From contig SVNP01000024.1 in NCBI GenBank assembly GCA_015066805.1, positions 1-36,544 of the forward strand: DNA of 36,544 nucleotides. The letters run 5' to 3'. A model generated the notes under the pieces. That model was not told where the DNA came from and made no database searches. It saw only the letters and a program-made list of their open reading frames with translations. The stretch is from Ruminococcus sp. (GTDB taxonomy: Bacteria > Bacillota > Clostridia > Oscillospirales > Ruminococcaceae). This document shows, piece by piece, positions 22,201-34,511 of this stretch. Each line of letters starts with the position of its first letter. Position 1 is the first letter of the stretch. A program made the translations under genes and the position numbers.

Positions 22201-24435
22201 TTACAGGGTAAGCTGGCCGGAAAGCTCCAGCTCCTTTGCCATGCCGCCTACTGCGGGTATATTCTTCACGATGTATTTTTTCATCTGCTCCTGCTGCTCC
22301 TCGGTGATGACGGCAGCGTATTCCACCACAGCCTTTGCCCGCAGGGTCATCACCTGCACACCGATGCTGTCACGGCTTGCCTTGGGCAGCAGCATCTCGG
22401 TACGGAACACCAGTGCCCTGCCGTTGGTGGTACGCATCAGCACGGAGGCATCCTCCGGCAGCACCAGCACAGCCACCAGCGGCGATTTATCCGAGTAGGC
22501 ATTGGCAAGCTTGCGGCGGTTGGTTTTGGTCTCATAGGCACGCAGCGGCACCTTGGTTGCCTTGCCGTTTGCATAGCAGAACAACAAAAATCCGCTGTAA
22601 TCGGCAGTGGCTACCATGGAAACCACGTTCTCGCCCTCATCAAAGCCCAGCTTTACGGGAACATAATCGCCCAGCACGCTGGTTTTGGTGTCCTCAAACT
22701 GGGCGGCACGGGATTTGTACACCTGTGCTTTATCCGTAAAGAACAGCAGCTCGGTGCGGTTGGTAGCTTCCATCTGCCGGATCAGGCTGTCGCCCTCCTT
22801 CAGCTTATGCTCGCCGCTCATCCGCAGGCTCTGGGGGGTGATCTTCTTGAAGTAGCCCCCTGCGGTCATAAACAGATGCACGGGATAATCGGGGGTATCC
22901 TCCCGGGGGTCCTCCTCCGGCTCATCGGTCAGATCATAGAACAGGGTTTTACGGGGCTGACCGTACTTTTTCATCACATCCTGCAGCTCACCGATCATAA
23001 TTCTGCGGATCTTCTTCACATCCCGCAGGATCTCCTCCATCTCGGCGATCTCCGCTGCAAGCTGTTCGATCTCCTTGGTGCGGTTGAGGATATACTCACG
23101 GTTTAAATGGCGCAGCTTGATTTCCGCCACATATTCCGCCTGGATCTCATCAATGCCAAAGCCGATCATCAGGTTGGAGACCACCTCGGCTTCCTCCTCG
23201 GTCTCCCGCACGATGCGGATGGCCTTGTCGATATCCAGCAGGATTTTTGCAAGACCCTGCAGCAGATGCATCTTATCCTTTTTCTTGTGCAGATCAAAAT
23301 ACACTCTGCGGCGGATGCACTCGGTACGGAACGCCACCCATTCCTCCAGAATCTCACGGATGCCCAGTACTCTGGGGGTACCTGCAATGAGGATATTGAA
23401 GTTGCAGGATACCGAATCCTGCAAAGGAGTCATGCGGAACAGCTTCTGCATCAGCTTGTCGGGATCGGTGTACCGCTTCAGGTCAAGGGTCAGCTTCAGG
23501 CCGTTGATATCCGTTTCATCCCGCAGGTAGGAGATCTCTCTGATCTTACCTGCCTTGATCAGCTCCACCGTTTTCTCCATAATGGCTTCGATGGTGGTGG
23601 AATAGGGGATCTGGGTGATCTCAATACAGTTTGCGGATTTATCGTAGCTGTACTTTGCACGCAGCTTCACGCTGCCTCTGCCTGTTTCGTAGATGCGCTG
23701 CATTTCCGCTTCATCATAGACCAGATAGGCTCCCGTGGGGAAATCCGGCCCCTTGAGGGTGGAAAGCAGGTCATGCTCGGGATTTTTGATGTAGGCAATG
23801 GTCGTCTCACAGACCTCCGCCAGATTAAAGGGGCACACATTGCTTGCCATGGAAACCGCAATGCCTACGTTGGAATTCACCAGCACCGTAGGGAAAGTAG
23901 CGGGCAGCAGGGTCGGCTCCACGGTGGTATTGTCGTAGTTGGGAACAAAATCCACGGTTTCCTTGTCGATATCACGGAACAGCTCGCCGCTGATGGGTTC
24001 CAGCTTGACTTCGGTGTAACGGGGGGCGGCATATGCCATATCACGGCTGTATGCCTTGCCGAAGTTGCCCTTGCTGTCCACATAGGGGTGCAGCAGAGAT
24101 TCATTGCCCCTTGCCAGACGCACCATGGTCTCATAGATGGCAGCATCGCCGTGGGGGTTCAGGCGCATGGTCTGACCCACCACGTTTGCGGATTTGGTTC
24201 TGGCACCGCTGAGCAGACCCATTTTGTACATGGTATACAGGATCTTGCGGTGGGAGGGCTTAAAGCCGTCGATCTCCGGCAGCGCACGGGACACAATGGC
24301 ACTCATGGCATAGGGCATGAAGTTCTTCCGCAGGGTTTCCGTAATGCGCTCCTCCACCACCAGCCCCGCACCCTCGATGTAGGCATCGTTGGGGTTTGCG
24401 GGCTGAATGGGCGTTTCTCGTTTTTTTCTCGCCAT
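22201..24435 (-). CDS. Divergent type IIA topoisomerase subunit A (GyrA/ParC-like), 744 aa
   Basis: Breaks and rejoins DNA through the tyrosine in AAPRYTEV (Tyr140 from this start). The winged-helix segment ARTKSANVVGQTMRLNPHGDAAIYE corresponds to the quinolone-determining region. There the residue equivalent to GyrA Ser83 is Ala and Asp87 is Glu. A long coiled-coil tower region (about 420-480) follows, then a C-terminal part of about 230 residues, shorter than GyrA. No clear GyrA-box is visible, which favours a topoisomerase IV-like enzyme. The start is the second ATG, 9 bases after AAAGG; the first ATG abuts that site. The B subunit lies upstream, separated by a four-helix-bundle gene and two repeat arrays. 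Probably the second type IIA enzyme of the cell alongside gyrase. Confidence 0.9.
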   Translation of the reverse strand: MARKKRETPIQPANPNDAYIEGAGLVVEERITETLRKNFMPYAMSAIVSRALPEIDGFKPSHRKILYTMYKMGLLSGARTKSANVVGQTMRLNPHGDAAIYETMVRLARGNESLLHPYVDSKGNFGKAYSRDMAYAAPRYTEVKLEPISGELFRDIDKETVDFVPNYDNTTVEPTLLPATFPTVLVNSNVGIAVSMASNVCPFNLAEVCETTIAYIKNPEHDLLSTLKGPDFPTGAYLVYDEAEMQRIYETGRGSVKLRAKYSYDKSANCIEITQIPYSTTIEAIMEKTVELIKAGKIREISYLRDETDINGLKLTLDLKRYTDPDKLMQKLFRMTPLQDSVSCNFNILIAGTPRVLGIREILEEWVAFRTECIRRRVYFDLHKKKDKMHLLQGLAKILLDIDKAIRIVRETEEEAEVVSNLMIGFGIDEIQAEYVAEIKLRHLNREYILNRTKEIEQLAAEIAEMEEILRDVKKIRRIMIGELQDVMKKYGQPRKTLFYDLTDEPEEDPREDTPDYPVHLFMTAGGYFKKITPQSLRMSGEHKLKEGDSLIRQMEATNRTELLFFTDKAQVYKSRAAQFEDTKTSVLGDYVPVKLGFDEGENVVSMVATADYSGFLLFCYANGKATKVPLRAYETKTNRRKLANAYSDKSPLVAVLVLPEDASVLMRTTNGRALVFRTEMLLPKASRDSIGVQVMTLRAKAVVEYAAVITEEQQEQMKKYIVKNIPAVGGMAKELELSGQLTL

Positions 24436-24454
24436 ATATTCCATCCTTTCTGGG

Positions 24455-24486
24455 AGTTAATAGTTAATAGTTAATAGTTAATAGTT
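24455..24486. repeat. Heptamer tandem repeat (AGTTAAT)x4.6, left flank of S23 gene
   Basis: Four perfect AGTTAAT units plus AGTT, ending one base before the stop codon of the four-helix-bundle gene and 20 bases from the start of the topoisomerase A gene. In the mRNA sense it reads TTAACTA repeated. Confidence 0.95.
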
Positions 24487-24487
24487 C

Positions 24488-24850
24488 TCAACCATTTTCA
24501 TTGTCGCGTATTGTTTTGATTGTTGCGGTCAGCATACGGATAATTTCATCGCAATCATGCCGCATGGACTCAAACATACCCTTGGTCAGGTATCCTGTTT
24601 CATACAGCAATTCCAACCAATACATAGTTTCTGCGCCTTCTTTATAGGCAATATACAGCTTGGCAACAAAGTCCCTTCTGCTGGCTCCATAACAAGCCTC
24701 GGTCACATTGGCACCGATGCTCGTGCCGCTTCGAAGTATCTGCTTTGAAAGCACGAATTCACGTTTTTCTTCCACCAGATACTGATACATACGCACAATC
24801 CGGACAGCGAATCGCTTGCTCTTATTCCGCACTGTATCTTTTTCACTCAT
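24488..24850 (-). CDS. Four-helix-bundle protein, S23/IVP family, 120 aa
   Basis: The motifs FAVRIVRMYQYLV, LSKQILRSGTSIGANVTEA, SRRDFVAKLYIAYKEGAET and YWLELLYETGYL follow the S23 (23S rRNA intervening-sequence protein) family, a pentamer-forming four-helix bundle related to Avd of diversity-generating retroelements. The ATG at 24850 is preferred to a GTG at 24862. It sits between the two subunit genes of a topoisomerase operon, same strand, bounded tightly by heptamer arrays: 15 bases on the 5' side and 1 base on the 3' side. Its base composition is more AT-rich than its neighbours, so it looks inserted. No reverse transcriptase or template/variable repeat is present in the window. Function unknown; RNA binding is suspected in the family. 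Confidence 0.9.
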   Translation of the reverse strand: MSEKDTVRNKSKRFAVRIVRMYQYLVEEKREFVLSKQILRSGTSIGANVTEACYGASRRDFVAKLYIAYKEGAETMYWLELLYETGYLTKGMFESMRHDCDEIIRMLTATIKTIRDNENG

Positions 24851-24865
24851 ATGTACGCCCACCCT

Positions 24866-24919
24866 AACTCTTAACTCTTAACTCTTAACTCTTAACTCTT
24901 AACTCTTAACTCTTAACTC
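24866..24919. repeat. Heptamer tandem repeat (AACTCTT)x7.7, right flank of S23 gene
   Basis: Seven perfect AACTCTT units plus AACTC. It begins 15 bases before (in the mRNA sense, upstream of) the S23 start codon and ends 14 bases from the stop of the topoisomerase B gene. Its reverse complement is (AGTTAAG)n, differing from the left array (AGTTAAT)n by one base per unit, so the two arrays are near-inverted copies. Confidence 0.95.
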
Positions 24920-24933
24920 GTACAACTCGTAGA

Positions 24934-26916
24934 TCAACTGATGTCTGCAAGGTCAAGGTAGTCGCCGCCATGCTCTGCGATGTAGTCTTTTCTGCCCTGT
25001 AAATTATCGCCCAGCAGCATCTCGAACATTTCTGCTGTGGCACTTACATCCTCGGGGGTCACCTTGATGATGCGTCTGGTTTCGGGATTCATGGTGGTCA
25101 GTGCCATCATTTCCGCTTCGTTTTCACCCAGACCCTTGGAACGCTGTAAGGTGAACTTCTCCCCCTCGATCATCTTCAGGATCTTCACCCGTTCCTTTTC
25201 ATCATAGGCAAAATAGGTGCGGTTTTTGGTGGTGATCTCAAACAGCGGGGATTCCGCAATATACACATAGCCCTCACGGATCAGGGTGGGTGTCAGACGG
25301 TACAGCATGGTAAGGATCAGGGTACGGATATGGAAGCCGTCCTCATCCGCATCGGTACAGATGACGATTTTGTGCCAGCGCAGATTCTCCAGACTGAAGG
25401 TGGAAAGCTCCTTGTTGCTTTTGGCGGAAACTTCAACACCGCAGCCCAGCACCTTCAGCAGATCGGTAATGATCTCGCTTTTGAAGATACGGGCATAGTC
25501 TGCCTTCAGGCAGTTGAGGATCTTGCCGCGCACGGGGATCACCGCCTGGAACTCTGCATCTCTTGCCATTTTGACAGAGCCCAATGCAGAGTCGCCCTCC
25601 ACGATGTAAAGCTCTCTGCGGCCGGTATCCTTGGAACGGCAATCCACAAACTTGGGTACCATATTGGCAAGATCAATGTTGCCCGAAAGCTTCTTTTTCA
25701 GGTTCAGCCTTGTACGCTCGGCGTTTTCACGGCTATGCTTGTTTACCAGCACCTGGGATGCGATCCTTGCGGCATCATCGGGGTTTTCGGTAAAGTAAAC
25801 CTCAAGCTGATGCTTCAAAAACTCCACCATTGCCTCATAGATGAAGCGGTTGGTAATGGCTTTTTTGGTCTGGTTTTCGTAGGATGCCACCGTGGAAAAG
25901 GAGGAGGACACCAGCACCAGACAATCCTGCACATCGGCAAAGGTGATCTTGTTTTCGTTTTTGGTGTAGCGGTTGTTGGCACGCAAAAATGCGTCGATCT
26001 GGGCTACAAAGGCACGCTTTACGGCATCATCGGGGGTACCGCCGTGCTCCAGAAAGCTGGAGTTGTGGTAGTATTCGATCTTCTGCACCGCATTGGAGAA
26101 GGCAAATGCCACGGAAAGCTTTACTTTATACTCGGGCTTGTCCTCCCGATCTCTGCCCTTGCGCTCTGCCTGCCAGTACTGCACCCCTGTCATGGCCTGA
26201 TCGCCCAGCATTTCGGTCACATAATCGGAGATGCCGTTTTCATAGCGGTACTCGGTGGTTTCAAACCTGCCCTTTTCTGCCTCATTGCGGTAGATCAGCA
26301 GCAGATTGGGGTTTACCACTGCCTGACGGCGCAGCACATCCCGGAACCACTCATCGGGGATCATAATATCGGTAAAAACCTCCAGATCGGGCTTCCAGCG
26401 GGTACGGGTACCCGTATGACGGCGGGAAACCGCTTCTTTTTGCAGGCCGCCGATGTTAAAGCCCTTCTCGAAGTGCAGGGTATAGCGGGTATTGTCACGG
26501 ATGATCTCCACATCCATATACTCGGAGGCAAACTGGGTAGAGCAAAGACCCAGACCGTTTAAGCCCAGAGAATAGGCATAGGTATCATCCTCGGCATCGT
26601 ATTTGCCGCCTGCGTACATCTCGCAGTAGACCAGCTCCCAGTTATAGCGTTCCTCGGTGCTGTTCCAGTCCACGGGGCAGCCGCGGCCGAAGTCCTCTAC
26701 CTCCACGGAGCCGTCTGCAAAGCGGGTAATGATGATCTTTTCACCAAAGCCTGCTCTGGCTTCATCAATGGAGTTGGAAATGACCTCAAAAATGGAATGG
26801 GCACAGCCATCGAGTCCATCGGAGCCGAAAATAACGCCCGGACGCTTTCTGACCTTATCGGGGCCTTTCAGCAGGGTAATGCTTTCGTTGCCGTATTCCG
26901 GCGTTTTCTTTGCCAT
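24934..26916 (-). CDS. Divergent type IIA topoisomerase subunit B (GyrB/ParE-like), 660 aa
   Basis: ATPase subunit of the topoisomerase. The GHKL site has Glu44 and Asn48 in FEVISNSIDEARAG, Asp75 in VEDFGRGCPV (the family norm is DNGRGIPV) and the loop GLNGLGLCSTQFAS. The TOPRIM domain has Glu440 in YIVEGDSALGS and Asp522/524/526 in TDADEDGFHIRTL. The C-terminal RSKGLGENEAEMM replaces the usual RYKGLGEMNPEQL. Catalytic residues are therefore kept although the surrounding motifs have drifted, marking a diverged ParE-like lineage. AAGGA lies 8 bases before the ATG. It is first in its operon, after a good promoter. Confidence 0.92.
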   Translation of the reverse strand: MAKKTPEYGNESITLLKGPDKVRKRPGVIFGSDGLDGCAHSIFEVISNSIDEARAGFGEKIIITRFADGSVEVEDFGRGCPVDWNSTEERYNWELVYCEMYAGGKYDAEDDTYAYSLGLNGLGLCSTQFASEYMDVEIIRDNTRYTLHFEKGFNIGGLQKEAVSRRHTGTRTRWKPDLEVFTDIMIPDEWFRDVLRRQAVVNPNLLLIYRNEAEKGRFETTEYRYENGISDYVTEMLGDQAMTGVQYWQAERKGRDREDKPEYKVKLSVAFAFSNAVQKIEYYHNSSFLEHGGTPDDAVKRAFVAQIDAFLRANNRYTKNENKITFADVQDCLVLVSSSFSTVASYENQTKKAITNRFIYEAMVEFLKHQLEVYFTENPDDAARIASQVLVNKHSRENAERTRLNLKKKLSGNIDLANMVPKFVDCRSKDTGRRELYIVEGDSALGSVKMARDAEFQAVIPVRGKILNCLKADYARIFKSEIITDLLKVLGCGVEVSAKSNKELSTFSLENLRWHKIVICTDADEDGFHIRTLILTMLYRLTPTLIREGYVYIAESPLFEITTKNRTYFAYDEKERVKILKMIEGEKFTLQRSKGLGENEAEMMALTTMNPETRRIIKVTPEDVSATAEMFEMLLGDNLQGRKDYIAEHGGDYLDLADIS

Positions 26917-29636: not shown

Positions 29637-31199
29637 ATGAAACATACCACTACACGCCTGCTGGCAGCCGCCCTGACAGCAGCCCTCCTGCTGCCATGTG
29701 CACAAACCGTTACCATGGCGGATGATACCCGTACCGTTACGGTTTCTACCACAGAAGAACTGCTTGCGGCACTTGCCGATGCCCGGGCAGGCGATGAGAT
29801 CATCGTAAAAGAAGGCATCTACCGCAACGAAGAATGGATCGGTGACTGGTCAGCCTTTTATGCCAATGCATCCGGCACGGCGGAAAACCCCATCATTCTG
29901 CGCAGTGAAGACCCCGAACATCCTGCCCACCTGCAGGCAGGCGGCGATGATGACAAGCTGGCTCTGCGGATCATCGGCAGCTATTGGCAGATCAGAGATC
30001 TGATCGTCAGCGATGCCGCCAAGGGTATTTTCCTGCAGCAGTCGGAACACAGCATCATCTCCGGCTGTGAGGTATACAATATCGGCGGCGAAGCCATCCA
30101 CATCATTGATAACAGCAGCTATAATCTGGTAGAAAACTGCTATGTCCATGATGCAGGCACCGTGACTCCTCAGTATGGTGAGGGCGTTTACATCGGCAGC
30201 TCCCACAAAACAGAGGGCTACGGCTATGAGTGCCACTACAATACCGTAAGAGGCTGTACCTTCGGTCCCAACGTGGCAGCCGATCATGTGGATATCAAAG
30301 AATATACCATCGGCAATCTGGTGGAATACTGTACCTTTGACGGTACGGGCATACAGGGTGAAAACGGCGGCGACAGCTTTGTGGAGATCAAGGGCAATTA
30401 CTGTACCGTACGCAACAACATCGGCTACCGCAACGGCTGTGAAAAGGTTCTGTACGCCTTTGATCTGAATGTACAACTGGACGGCTGGGGGCAGTATAAT
30501 AAGATCTACGACAACACCGTGCATATGGATACCACCGACTGCTGCATCACCAAAAGCTGGAATTGCAGCACTATGGTATTCCGCAATACCGCCACCCCCG
30601 AAGGCATCACCCATTCCGGCAACATGACCATGCAGGTACTGGGGTTTGCTCTGCCCGGCGATGCCGACGAAAACGGTACGGTAGATATGGAAGATGTACA
30701 GACCATGCAGAATCTGCTGGTAAACCGCCCCTGCCGCTATCTCAGCCCCGAAAACGCAGACATGGACGTCAGCGGCACACTCACCGCAGCCGATCTGACC
30801 CTGCTGAAGCGGCTGATTCTTTCCGGCACACAGCAGGAGCCTGTTATGACCGTGGATTTCACCAAAGAAGAAGCAGGCAAATGGCGCATGAGCGATGGTC
30901 TGGCAGACCGCACCCTTACCTTTACCCTTCAGGGTGAGGCAGGCTGCAAGGTCAATATGGCATGGGGCTACTGGAACCCCAATACCGTAAACGAAAGCAC
31001 AGGCAGCACGGGCAAATGGCATCAGATCGGGCTGGGCGAATATACTGCGGATGAAAACGGCCGCATCACCATTATCGTAACCACTCCCGCAGAGGATCCC
31101 GTGACCCGTATTGCACTGGAGATCTACGATTACTACGGTGCAGACGGCAGCACCTCGGATATGGATTTGGTGGAGCTGGTCAGTGTACAGGTGCAGTGA
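29637..31199 (+). CDS. Secreted right-handed beta-helix protein with internal dockerin, 520 aa
   Basis: Signal peptide at residues 1-28 ending near VTMADD. Residues about 35-338 form a right-handed parallel beta-helix like those of polysaccharide lyases and chondroitinase-B-type proteins: VSTTEELLAALADARAGDEI, ISGCEVYNIGGEAIHI, ADHVDIKEYTIGNLVEYCTF, SFVEIKGNYCTVRNN. Residues 341-395 are a type I dockerin (GDADENGTVDMEDVQTMQNL and ADMDVSGTLTAADLTLLKRL). Residues about 400-520 are a beta-sandwich-like module with Trp and Tyr residues (WGYWNPN, KWHQIGLGEY) resembling carbohydrate-binding modules of Ruminococcus proteins. The substrate is probably pectin or another acidic polysaccharide, but no lyase family can be fixed by eye. 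GGAGG lies 7 bases before the ATG. Confidence 0.85.
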   Translation: MKHTTTRLLAAALTAALLLPCAQTVTMADDTRTVTVSTTEELLAALADARAGDEIIVKEGIYRNEEWIGDWSAFYANASGTAENPIILRSEDPEHPAHLQAGGDDDKLALRIIGSYWQIRDLIVSDAAKGIFLQQSEHSIISGCEVYNIGGEAIHIIDNSSYNLVENCYVHDAGTVTPQYGEGVYIGSSHKTEGYGYECHYNTVRGCTFGPNVAADHVDIKEYTIGNLVEYCTFDGTGIQGENGGDSFVEIKGNYCTVRNNIGYRNGCEKVLYAFDLNVQLDGWGQYNKIYDNTVHMDTTDCCITKSWNCSTMVFRNTATPEGITHSGNMTMQVLGFALPGDADENGTVDMEDVQTMQNLLVNRPCRYLSPENADMDVSGTLTAADLTLLKRLILSGTQQEPVMTVDFTKEEAGKWRMSDGLADRTLTFTLQGEAGCKVNMAWGYWNPNTVNESTGSTGKWHQIGLGEYTADENGRITIIVTTPAEDPVTRIALEIYDYYGADGSTSDMDLVELVSVQVQ

Positions 31200-32603: not shown

Positions 32604-32632
32604 TTGACATTTCAGACGGTTTGTGCTATATT
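32604..32632 (+). promoter_or_regulatory. GH9 gene promoter
   Basis: TTGACA (32604-32609), 17-base spacer, TATATT (32627-32632) with TGC before it. Transcription should start near 32639, giving a leader of about 97 bases. Confidence 0.85.
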
Positions 32633-32648
32633 GATTCTATATAGTTTC

Positions 32649-32700
32649 CATCACCATCTGCACGGATTTTTATACATTCCGCCCTTTGGTGATGCCGTGC
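32649..32700 (+). promoter_or_regulatory. GH9 leader with two mutually exclusive stems
   Basis: CATCACC (32649-32655) is complementary to GGTGATG (32688-32694), and GCACGG (32660-32665) to CCGTGC (32695-32700). The order means the two stems cross and cannot be nested. The joining loops (4 and 0 bases) are too short for a coaxial pseudoknot, so alternative folding is the simplest reading. No known riboswitch is recognised. Confidence 0.35.
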
Positions 32701-32735
32701 CCCCAAAACTGTACATAAAGAAAGGACGAGTCACC

Positions 32736-34511
32736 ATGAAAACACGCTCCCTGAAAACCAGATGGATCGCTGCCCTCTCCGCAGGTGCCATGCTGATGCA
32801 GCTTCCTGCCATCACCCCCGCGGCAGCCGATACCCTCAACTACGGCGATGCCCTGAAGCTGAGCCTGTACTTCTACGATTCCAACCAGTGCGGCACCGAG
32901 GTGGATGACAACCCCCTGACATGGCGCGGCAACTGCCACACCTATGATGCTGCCGCACCCCTCAGTGCTGCCGTAGGTCTCACCGATGCGGAAAAGGCTG
33001 TCATCAAGGCAGCAAACGGCGGTGCCGATACGGTGGATGTTTCCGGCGGCTACCATGATGCGGGCGACCACATCAAATCCACCATGACCATGGGCTTTTC
33101 CGCCACCAGCCTTGCCTGGTCTTACTACACCAACCCCGCTGCCTTCAAGGATACCGGCAGCCGTGCCCATCTCTTTGATATCCTGAAGGAAATGTGCGAC
33201 TACATGATGAAGGTCACCTACCTGGATGACAGCGGTGCGGTAGTGGCGTTCTGCTATCTGGTCAGCAACAGCGGCGAACACAGCGAATGGCTTGCACCCG
33301 AAAAGCAGACCTCCGCAAGACCCACCTACTGGGGTACCGCATCCCACCAGTCTGCCGATACCGCAGGTGAAATGGCTGCCGCACTGGCAAGCTCCTCTGT
33401 TGCCCTGCGTGAGGTAGATGCCGACTACGCCGATGAATGCCTGAAATATGCCAAGGCCCTGCGGGATTTTGCACAGAAATACCCCGGTGCCTCCTATGAC
33501 GGCATCGGTGATATGTATTCCTCCTCCTCTCAGGTGGATGATATCGCATGGGCAGATCTGTGGTGCCATGTGGCTGACGGTACCATCAGCAGCTATACGC
33601 CCGTTTCCGTCAACAGCGATGGCTCCTACAATGCTTCCACCGGCAAGGAATATGACGGCTGGATCTACTCCTGGGGCAAGGTCTGGGGCGGCTACTGCAC
33701 GCTGCTGTACTCTCTGGGCTTTGATGCCTATGGCAGCACCGTACTCAACAACATGAACCGCCTGCTGAGCAATCCCACCGCAGGCAGCTATTCCATCGTG
33801 GCGGATGGCTGGGGTGCTTCCCGTTATAGCTGTGCATGGCAGATGTACTGCACCAATTACGCCGCAACCTCCGGTGAAAGCCGCTATGCCGAAAATGCCA
33901 AGACCCAGATGGACTATCTGCTGGGCGGCAACCCCGATCACAGAAGCTATCTGCTGGGCTATACCGATACCTTCCCCTCCCAGATCCACCACAGAGGTGC
34001 CAACCCCAACAAGGGCAATGCCACCTATGTGCTGTACGGCGGTCTGGTCGGCGGCCCCACCGATGCCAACGGCTCCTACACCGATCGTTATGATTCCTAC
34101 GCCTGTACCGAGCCTGCTCTGGATTACAACGGCTGCTTTACCCTTGCCATCTCCGGTCTTTGCACCGCCTTTGGTGCAGGCGACGGCAGCGGTGCCGATG
34201 CTGTGATCGCAGCGGCAAGCGAGATCGACGAAACCAAAGAGTTCGGTGCATGGTATGATGAGGGCGGTCAGGTGGATCCCCCCACCACCACCGATACCAC
34301 CGAGCCTGTGGGCGATGCCCATGTAGGCGATGTCAACTGCGACGGCATGGTAAAAATCGGTGATGTGATCCTGCTGAACCGCTTTTTGGCAGAGGATCAG
34401 ACCGTAAACATTTCCGATCAGGGTATGCTCAATGCGGAAGCCGACGGCACAACCGGCATCAACGGCAACGATGCGACTGCAATTCTCAAGATCATTGCAG
34501 GTCTGGAATAA
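32736..34511 (+). CDS. GH9 endoglucanase with C-terminal type I dockerin, 591 aa
   Basis: Secreted cellulase of the cellulosome. Signal peptide 1-31 ends TPAAA|D. The GH9 (alpha/alpha)6 domain starts directly at about 35 with no N-terminal Ig or CBM module. Catalytic motifs: SGGYHDAGDHIK with the Asp pair 108/111, PSQIHHRGANP with His418, His419 and Arg420, and the acid Glu459 in ACTEPALDYNGCF. A Pro/Thr linker (about 513-525) leads to the dockerin: a canonical first loop GDVNCDGMVKIGDVILLNRF and a second repeat, ADGTTGINGNDATAILKI, that is longer than usual. AAGGA lies 9 bases before the ATG; the upstream in-frame ATG at 32604 falls on the promoter and is rejected. Own promoter and terminator. 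Confidence 0.96.
   Translation: MKTRSLKTRWIAALSAGAMLMQLPAITPAAADTLNYGDALKLSLYFYDSNQCGTEVDDNPLTWRGNCHTYDAAAPLSAAVGLTDAEKAVIKAANGGADTVDVSGGYHDAGDHIKSTMTMGFSATSLAWSYYTNPAAFKDTGSRAHLFDILKEMCDYMMKVTYLDDSGAVVAFCYLVSNSGEHSEWLAPEKQTSARPTYWGTASHQSADTAGEMAAALASSSVALREVDADYADECLKYAKALRDFAQKYPGASYDGIGDMYSSSSQVDDIAWADLWCHVADGTISSYTPVSVNSDGSYNASTGKEYDGWIYSWGKVWGGYCTLLYSLGFDAYGSTVLNNMNRLLSNPTAGSYSIVADGWGASRYSCAWQMYCTNYAATSGESRYAENAKTQMDYLLGGNPDHRSYLLGYTDTFPSQIHHRGANPNKGNATYVLYGGLVGGPTDANGSYTDRYDSYACTEPALDYNGCFTLAISGLCTAFGAGDGSGADAVIAAASEIDETKEFGAWYDEGGQVDPPTTTDTTEPVGDAHVGDVNCDGMVKIGDVILLNRFLAEDQTVNISDQGMLNAEADGTTGINGNDATAILKIIAGLE

Follow-up and report, generated by a model that had tools for sequence, protein, structure and literature searches.

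S23 proteins are known from the intervening sequences (IVS) of 23S rRNA. According to the accessible text of its description, the IVS of Coxiella burnetii has three GACAGAT heptamers upstream of the S23 open reading frame (ORF), a heptamer copy number that varies among strains, and a 28-bp terminal stem; the same text recalls earlier suggestions of IVS mobility and terms the function and origin of the IVS and of the S23 protein unclear (PMC4990558). The protein family PF05635 resembles Avd, and Xcc0516 (2GSC) is cited by title as five four-helix bundles, in the available part of PMC10053308. Heptamer repeats have also been described. TAACTGA heptamers, whose origin is given as unknown, occur in Beggiatoaceae, cyanobacteria and Bacteroidetes (MacGregor 2015, PMC4679880), and GGGAATC repeats of Xanthomonas form 70 and 75 inverted pairs, generally with no mobile-element association (Rehm 2015, PMC4692102). 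In the available portions of these two papers, heptanucleotide arrays have no agreed origin so far, and the terms S23 and four helix are absent. No literature joining S23 with heptamer-ended elements was found beyond the heptamers of Coxiella itself, in a search for which subscription papers and preprints were largely out of reach.

The window is a stretch of 36,544 nucleotides from Ruminococcus sp. (GCA_015066805.1, contig SVNP01000024.1), and its S23 element of about 464 bp, with inverted heptamer-array ends, lies on the minus strand (24455..24918). The S23 gene (24488..24850, minus strand) encodes 120 aa from an ATG start, which is more likely than the GTG that is also open (24488-24862). 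Its product matches PF05635 (5.2e-29) and TIGR02436 'four helix bundle protein' (6.7e-33), and the AlphaFold2 model consists of four helices with a mean pLDDT of 95.1. The upstream host gene (24934..26916, minus strand; Pfam PF00204, PF00986 and PF01751) and the downstream host gene (22201..24444, minus strand; PF00521, 3e-130) encode type IIA topoisomerase subunits. NCBIfam matches of this pair fell below the cut-offs, so the names are kept as ParE/GyrB-like and ParC/GyrA-like. The S23 gene is sense to both neighbours, and its GC content is 0.446 compared with 0.525 and 0.551 in the neighbour genes. Elsewhere in the window, three stretches (1676-2632, 29637-31199 and 32604-34511) appear from their translations to encode secreted proteins with dockerin-like repeats, one of which resembles a family 9 cellulase.

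Both arms of the element are perfect arrays in TRF (100% matches), the top scorers among the 18 TRF rows of the window and its sole rows of period 7. The 3' arm, (AGTTAAT)x4.6 on the plus strand (24455..24486), is exactly 32 nt long and contains five AGTT words with the spacer AAT (at 24455, 24462, 24469, 24476 and 24483). The 5' arm, (TAACTCT)x7.9 on the plus strand (24865..24919), reads on the minus strand as eight AGTT words with the spacer AAG. From outside to inside, AGTT thus recurs every 7 nt in both arms, eight times on the 5' side and five times on the 3' side. The arms match at 6 of 7 bases per unit because the word is common to both and the spacers differ (AAG versus AAT); this agrees with the original prediction, as do the distances of one array from the S23 stop (1 base) and of the other from the ATG (15 bases). 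In the window genome (2.07 Mb, 79.6% complete) there is a single PF05635 match, and the pattern AGTTAANAGTTAANAGTTAA is present in the two S23 arms only. We use S23 element here for an S23 gene with inverted arms in which ARTK words recur every 7 nt; the window copy has both gene and arms.

Compared with the IVS, the window element has complementary ends and an S23 ORF; however, it does not lie in a 23S rRNA gene. An Rfam search at gathering scores found two tRNAs in the window and no known RNA family at the element. No transposase was recognised in the element, and PF05635 is the only Pfam match of the S23 protein. As for diversity-generating retroelements, the neighbours are topoisomerase subunits and the genome's one RVT_1 match is partial and lies on a different contig (C23). 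The window element is most likely mobile; it is kin to the 23S rRNA IVS, though no strict member, because it lies outside rRNA. The best explanation of the locus is that it may be one copy of a small mobile S23 element with heptad-word terminal inverted repeats, a proposal to which, taken in full, we assign a probability of about 0.7. The architecture, the matching of the arms, the link between arrays and S23 (by locus and, in the sampled stretches, by genome) the co-variation of residue and word, the presence or absence of elements at orthologous sites and the existence of related elements that lack S23 are direct observations, and mobility is most likely.

PF05635 was found in 48 of the 297 genomes of the window's family. 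At 41 of 70 S23 places in this family a period-7 array lay within 400 bp under looser limits, and 29 had none. In a by-eye reading of the family loci, from which L025-L047 were left out, several departures in layout were noted. Upstream of S23 in L020, L023 and L070 there is a variant plan, with AATGATG and CATCATT heptads split by short hairpins; in L052, L053, L054, L064 and L068 the S23 gene stands behind apparent tRNA genes and terminators, and is preceded by both inverted arms.

For a broader scan, genome contigs were searched with 17 aligned S23 proteins and the best 80 of at least 585 relatives were kept; these loci are top matches to queries from one bacterial family and not a random sample. 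They span Bacillota, Bacteroidota, Acidobacteriota, Ignavibacteriota, KSB1, Planctomycetota, Spirochaetota, Pseudomonadota and others. Among these best 80 loci, a period-7 array was found within 300 bp of S23 at 68, on both sides at 50, and no scoring array at 12. The density of period-7 arrays was 2.57 per kb near S23 (130 arrays) versus 0.127 per kb farther off (37 arrays in 291 kb); all other periods from 4 to 12 combined gave 3 arrays near and 11 far. The far arrays include S23-less inverted pairs built from the same unit as the S23 element close by (L099 and L163). The expected association of S23 genes with flanking heptamer arrays is therefore found at most of these loci. The arrays had also been proposed as an insertion scar; this idea was ruled out, since they recur at S23 loci with a differing unit and the same plan, and they are instead the element's own terminal inverted repeats. 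In Planktothrix plasmids (L198-L200), S23 with heptamer arrays has drmD on one side and a methylase or restriction-modification gene on the other, in DISARM-type operons.

The two arms of a locus resemble each other. At the 50 two-sided loci, the 5' unit agreed with the reverse complement of the 3' unit at six or more of seven bases in 45, compared with 8.5% when loci were mismatched, and the summed arm match was 327 versus 211±6.5 in 20,000 permutations (maximum 238). These 50 loci have 36 distinct heptamer units, so the unit varies while the plan is constant. Ungapped inverted repeats scoring at least 16 were present at 61 of the best 80 loci, versus 2 of 80 with swapped arms. At some loci variant units are mirrored in place between the arms (L143 and L145). 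Gene conversion alone, with no protein involved, could maintain such matching.

Arms aligned circularly (77 of 81 arm pairs) gave the consensus A-[A/G]-T-[T/G]-NNN, with 4.03 bits versus 2.28±0.09 for shuffled columns. The modal arm is 30-34 nt, which corresponds to five words, in 30 of 50 upstream and 26 of 50 downstream arms; the commonest arm repeats A-R-T-K five times, with 3 nt between successive words and 32 nt in all. The identity of S23 proteins correlated with unit match (75 of 81 loci; Mantel r 0.234, against at most 0.224 in 5000 permutations), and less with the spacer alone (r 0.131; the permutations had an sd of 0.045 and peaked at 0.161).

When all columns of the S23 alignment were scanned post hoc against the second base of the word, one N-terminal position led with z 11.7, the next being 5.0. 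In the AlphaFold2 model of the window S23 this position is the start of helix 1. Asn accompanied AA words at 47 loci and AG words at 2, whereas Ser accompanied AA at 1 and AG at 8 (63 loci tabulated, 58 used; Fisher 2e-7). The held-out loci gave 16, 1, 1 and 7 in the same order (25 decided; Fisher 1.3e-4); both Fisher values overstate independence, because many of the loci, held-out ones included, are related. On a tree built without that segment, the word changed 8 times and the residue 8 times, and 6 changes coincided, versus a null mean of 0.94 and none of 20,000 null draws that high. For example, the sister loci L141 and L178 differ in both residue and word. The misses are L012 and L152 (Asn with AG) and L151 (Ser with AA), while in the held-out set L019 pairs Asn with AG and L187, where the register is ambiguous, pairs Ser with AA; some loci in the comparison are mis-anchored, such as L037 and L039. 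The window S23 stands outside this rule, having Asp at that position and the word AGTT. The co-variation suggests that the word may be read directly by the protein.

Elements with the same units also occur away from S23 genes. In sampled stretches, 65 period-7 arrays were counted in 1.13 Mb of 22 S23-positive genomes and none in 0.93 Mb of 20 S23-negative relatives. The arrays came from 6 of the 22 genomes, with 37 in G113, 12 in G002 and 16 across the 20 others. Thus arrays scattered genome-wide with no relation to S23, which would have spoken against the original prediction, were not seen; in the sampled genomes the arrays track S23. The 37 arrays of G113 lie in 400 kb sampled away from its S23 genes, and by eye many are inverted pairs with shared inner hairpins. 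As we read them, 30 have units of its four S23 elements, 6 are AATGCAT and 1 fits none.

Searches with triple units gave a similar picture. (CAGGTAA)x3 had 57 overlapping exact matches at 33 places in G113 and none in 27 other S23-positive genomes; (AATTCGG)x3 had 15 in G002, 12 in G199 and none in 26 others; (GTGGAAA)x3 had 4 in G111 and none in 39 other genomes. A reversed control pattern gave 0 matches. Each of these four genomes (G113, G002, G199 and G111) has an S23 locus whose arms bear the searched unit. The pairing is not strict, because G113 has AATGCAT arrays and no S23 element of that unit: (AATGCAT)x3 had 43 matches in G113 and 40 in G249, and the S23 of this unit (L009) is in the congener G249 and not in G113. 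Moreover, in G002, which is rich in AATTCGG arrays, the S23 gene has an in-frame stop. Many dispersed copies with shared terminal inverted repeats are seen in G113, G002 and G199 and, more weakly, in G111; the window genome shows a single copy.

The parE-parC site of the window was compared across the genus. Of its 30 genomes 28 had a ParE match; 28 loci were taken, and the spacer was readable in 25 (L078, L095 and L098 were left out). S23 is in the spacer at 4 of these 25 loci (L071, which is the window locus, L079, L081 and L096). The spacer is short in L076, L090 and L094; the other readable S23-less spacers (L072-L097) are longer and, by eye, contain another ORF of about 110-120 aa. All four S23 loci have arms, with a different unit in each, and relatives with S23 here and no arrays, which would have told against the original prediction, were absent among them. 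In L079 the S23 frame looks broken by eye; the arms are kept. The match of own arms was 0.75-0.93 versus 0.43-0.81 for swapped arms, a comparison that is weak by itself because L096 scored higher with the arms of L081 (0.81) than with its own (0.75). A tree built from 141 S23 proteins placed the three intact S23 of the parE-parC site apart and not in one clade, with 3 changes, and a single change was seen in 0% of 200 bootstrap trees; even so, the strong branches are compatible with a single origin.

Filled and empty sites were compared in six genomes of one genus, where argC, argJ, dfrA and dnaJ were named by sequence recognition and without a profile scan. Between argC and argJ an S23 element is present in G002 and G199, the site is empty in G323, and G124 and G254 have other sequence with no arrays. 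The G322 site (L305) preserves what is left of an earlier element: a single heptamer arm and the opening codons of S23, which then run into an unrelated insert. Of the gene-less elements, one near dfrA is shared by G002 and G254 and absent from G199, and one after dnaJ occurs in G002 and is absent from both G199 and G322. In the Nostoc plasmids L201-L203 the element lies within a DNA cytosine methyltransferase gene that has intact alleles on other plasmids; these alleles give no clean junction because the filled ones lack about 320 bp of the gene. No transposition event was seen, and a target duplication was not readable at the compared sites, where the empty sites are too diverged and the outer word AATT is not separable from a duplication. 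Searches of viral contigs with four flank patterns gave no empty site; three patterns matched their own filled contig and one matched the filled contigs of L187 and L188. The idea that the unit copies a target word (CAATTCG in Nostoc, AATT at dnaJ) stayed anecdotal. These comparisons favour the mobile cassette of the original prediction, which had likened it to the 23S rRNA IVS and to Avd; the likeness to Avd holds at family level.

Several other explanations have to be weighed against a mobile S23 element. The arrays might be plain heptanucleotide microsatellites that arose by replication slippage and lie near S23 by chance. Array length does vary: the 3' arm differs between L187 and L188, and the same element in the three Nostoc plasmids has arms of 4 and 4 or of 3 and 3 units. 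Slippage may set the copy number; as the sole explanation, however, it or chance is refuted by the array counts and has a next to negligible probability, with period 7 almost alone, at S23 loci, and in inverted pairs with matching units. Chance is not a fair explanation because the same detector gave no period-7 array in the S23-negative 0.93 Mb. A further alternative places the arms in RNA. They would pair in the polycistronic mRNA and RNase III would cut the stem, which would either take out the S23 segment or part the two topoisomerase messages. Folding prediction does pair the window arms as RNA, with an MFE of -137.1 kcal/mol and a z of -3.17, a result matched by 1 of 100 shuffles, and RNase III cleavage of the Coxiella IVS with its heptamers in vitro is reported in the accessible text of PMC4990558. 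Moreover, S23 was sense to both neighbours at 47 of the 67 loci with ORFs on both sides and antisense to both at 5, as read by a crude longest-ORF caller. This bias fits either read-through expression or selection on RNA; it would be equally expected of a promoterless gene. The mismatches between arms at 81 loci were of the G-U type in 29 cases and of the A-C type in 34, and recognition at the DNA level is ranked above the RNA stem because there is no such wobble excess. The predicted stem can thus form as RNA, but its selection as an RNA stem was not borne out, and we regard a processing cassette as unlikely, while giving it appreciable weight.

S23 could also be a regulator acting in trans, which binds heptamer arrays across the genome at the transcriptional or post-transcriptional level, the element being domesticated rather than selfish. 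By eye, several arrays follow a stop codon and precede the next gene, residue and word co-vary, and a repeat-binding regulator had been proposed by MacGregor (2015, available text of PMC4679880), who also considered the binding protein itself as a mobile element. The window genome, however, shows the unit only in the element's own arms, and sites differ between congeners, which leaves this role rather improbable. By analogy with Avd, the elements might instead be retroelements moved in trans by a reverse transcriptase. S23 and Avd are near enough to have common Pfam matches, and the PF05635 protein of L065 looks Avd-like by eye, beside apparent variable and template repeats. This locus has no heptamer arrays, though, and RVT_1 was found in 9 of 28 S23-positive versus 6 of 12 S23-negative genomes. 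RVT_1 was not found in G002 (99% complete) or G199 (100%), both with many AATTCGG arrays; a strict need for a reverse transcriptase was rejected on this ground, and such a mode of movement is very improbable. Y1_Tnp was found in 17 of 28 S23-positive versus 4 of 12 S23-negative genomes, a weak association; a strict need for a Y1 transposase was likewise rejected, as no match was found in the array-rich G111. Neither RVT_1 nor Y1_Tnp is a clear partner of S23 elements.

The preferred reading remains a mobile element recognised as DNA by its own protein. S23 would be the sole gene of the element, and each end, in its commonest form, would be an arm of 32 nt in which the word A-[A/G]-T-[T/G] appears five times and the 3-nt spacer is free. 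One S23 pentamer may engage one arm, with one subunit per word, because solved S23-family proteins have five subunits; the entries 2rld and 2gsc, both relatives by sequence, have five chains each. The N-terminal arm of S23 would bind and read the second base of the word. Gene-less elements with the same unit would be moved or kept in trans, and the window S23 is probably expressed by read-through from its sense neighbours. A more general proposal, which we hold tentatively and at somewhat less than even odds, is that S23 elements might represent an unrecognised mobile class. It would use a non-nuclease pentamer whose subunits each read one of the five 4-nt words at either end, with Asn for A and Ser for G as the second base; each lineage would have its own unit and a fleet of gene-less copies, and much heptanucleotide repetition, as well as the 23S rRNA IVS, would be its products.

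The link between S23 and heptamers would give a long-unexplained protein family a candidate ligand, and a common class of bacterial repeats a possible cause. The reading of the word by S23 predicts a specificity switch of one residue. If movement is confirmed, the element would be mobile and yet have no known transposase. The window site is no local oddity; it is one case of a widespread, apparently mobile family whose protein seems to recognise repeats.

The Coxiella IVS and the window element are alike in having one S23 ORF, complementary ends, a length of about 430-460 bp and a sense orientation to the host transcript; whereas the window element lies between protein genes and the Coxiella IVS within 23S rRNA. 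The accessible text on the Coxiella IVS does not present its heptamers as general S23 ends, and includes no S23-less relatives and no unit families (PMC4990558). Avd of the diversity-generating retroelements (PMC10053308, PMC12875486) is kin to S23 by PF05635, whose resemblance to Avd is noted in the available part of PMC10053308; however, there is no reverse transcriptase beside the window element. The TAACTGA and GGGAATC repeats, as far as their accessible descriptions go, are like the S23 arrays in being of period 7, mostly intergenic and dispersed, and GGGAATC is often in inverted pairs. On the other strand, as we read it, TAACTGA is AGTT with a 3-nt spacer, as in the window arms.

MITEs and REPIN/RAYT systems are short, non-autonomous inverted-repeat elements that are mobilised in trans by a resident protein. 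S23 elements are also short inverted-repeat copies; their ends, however, are tandem heptads and not a fixed terminal sequence. Compared with the resident proteins of those systems, S23 does not belong to a known transposase family, and its unit differs from one S23 family to another.
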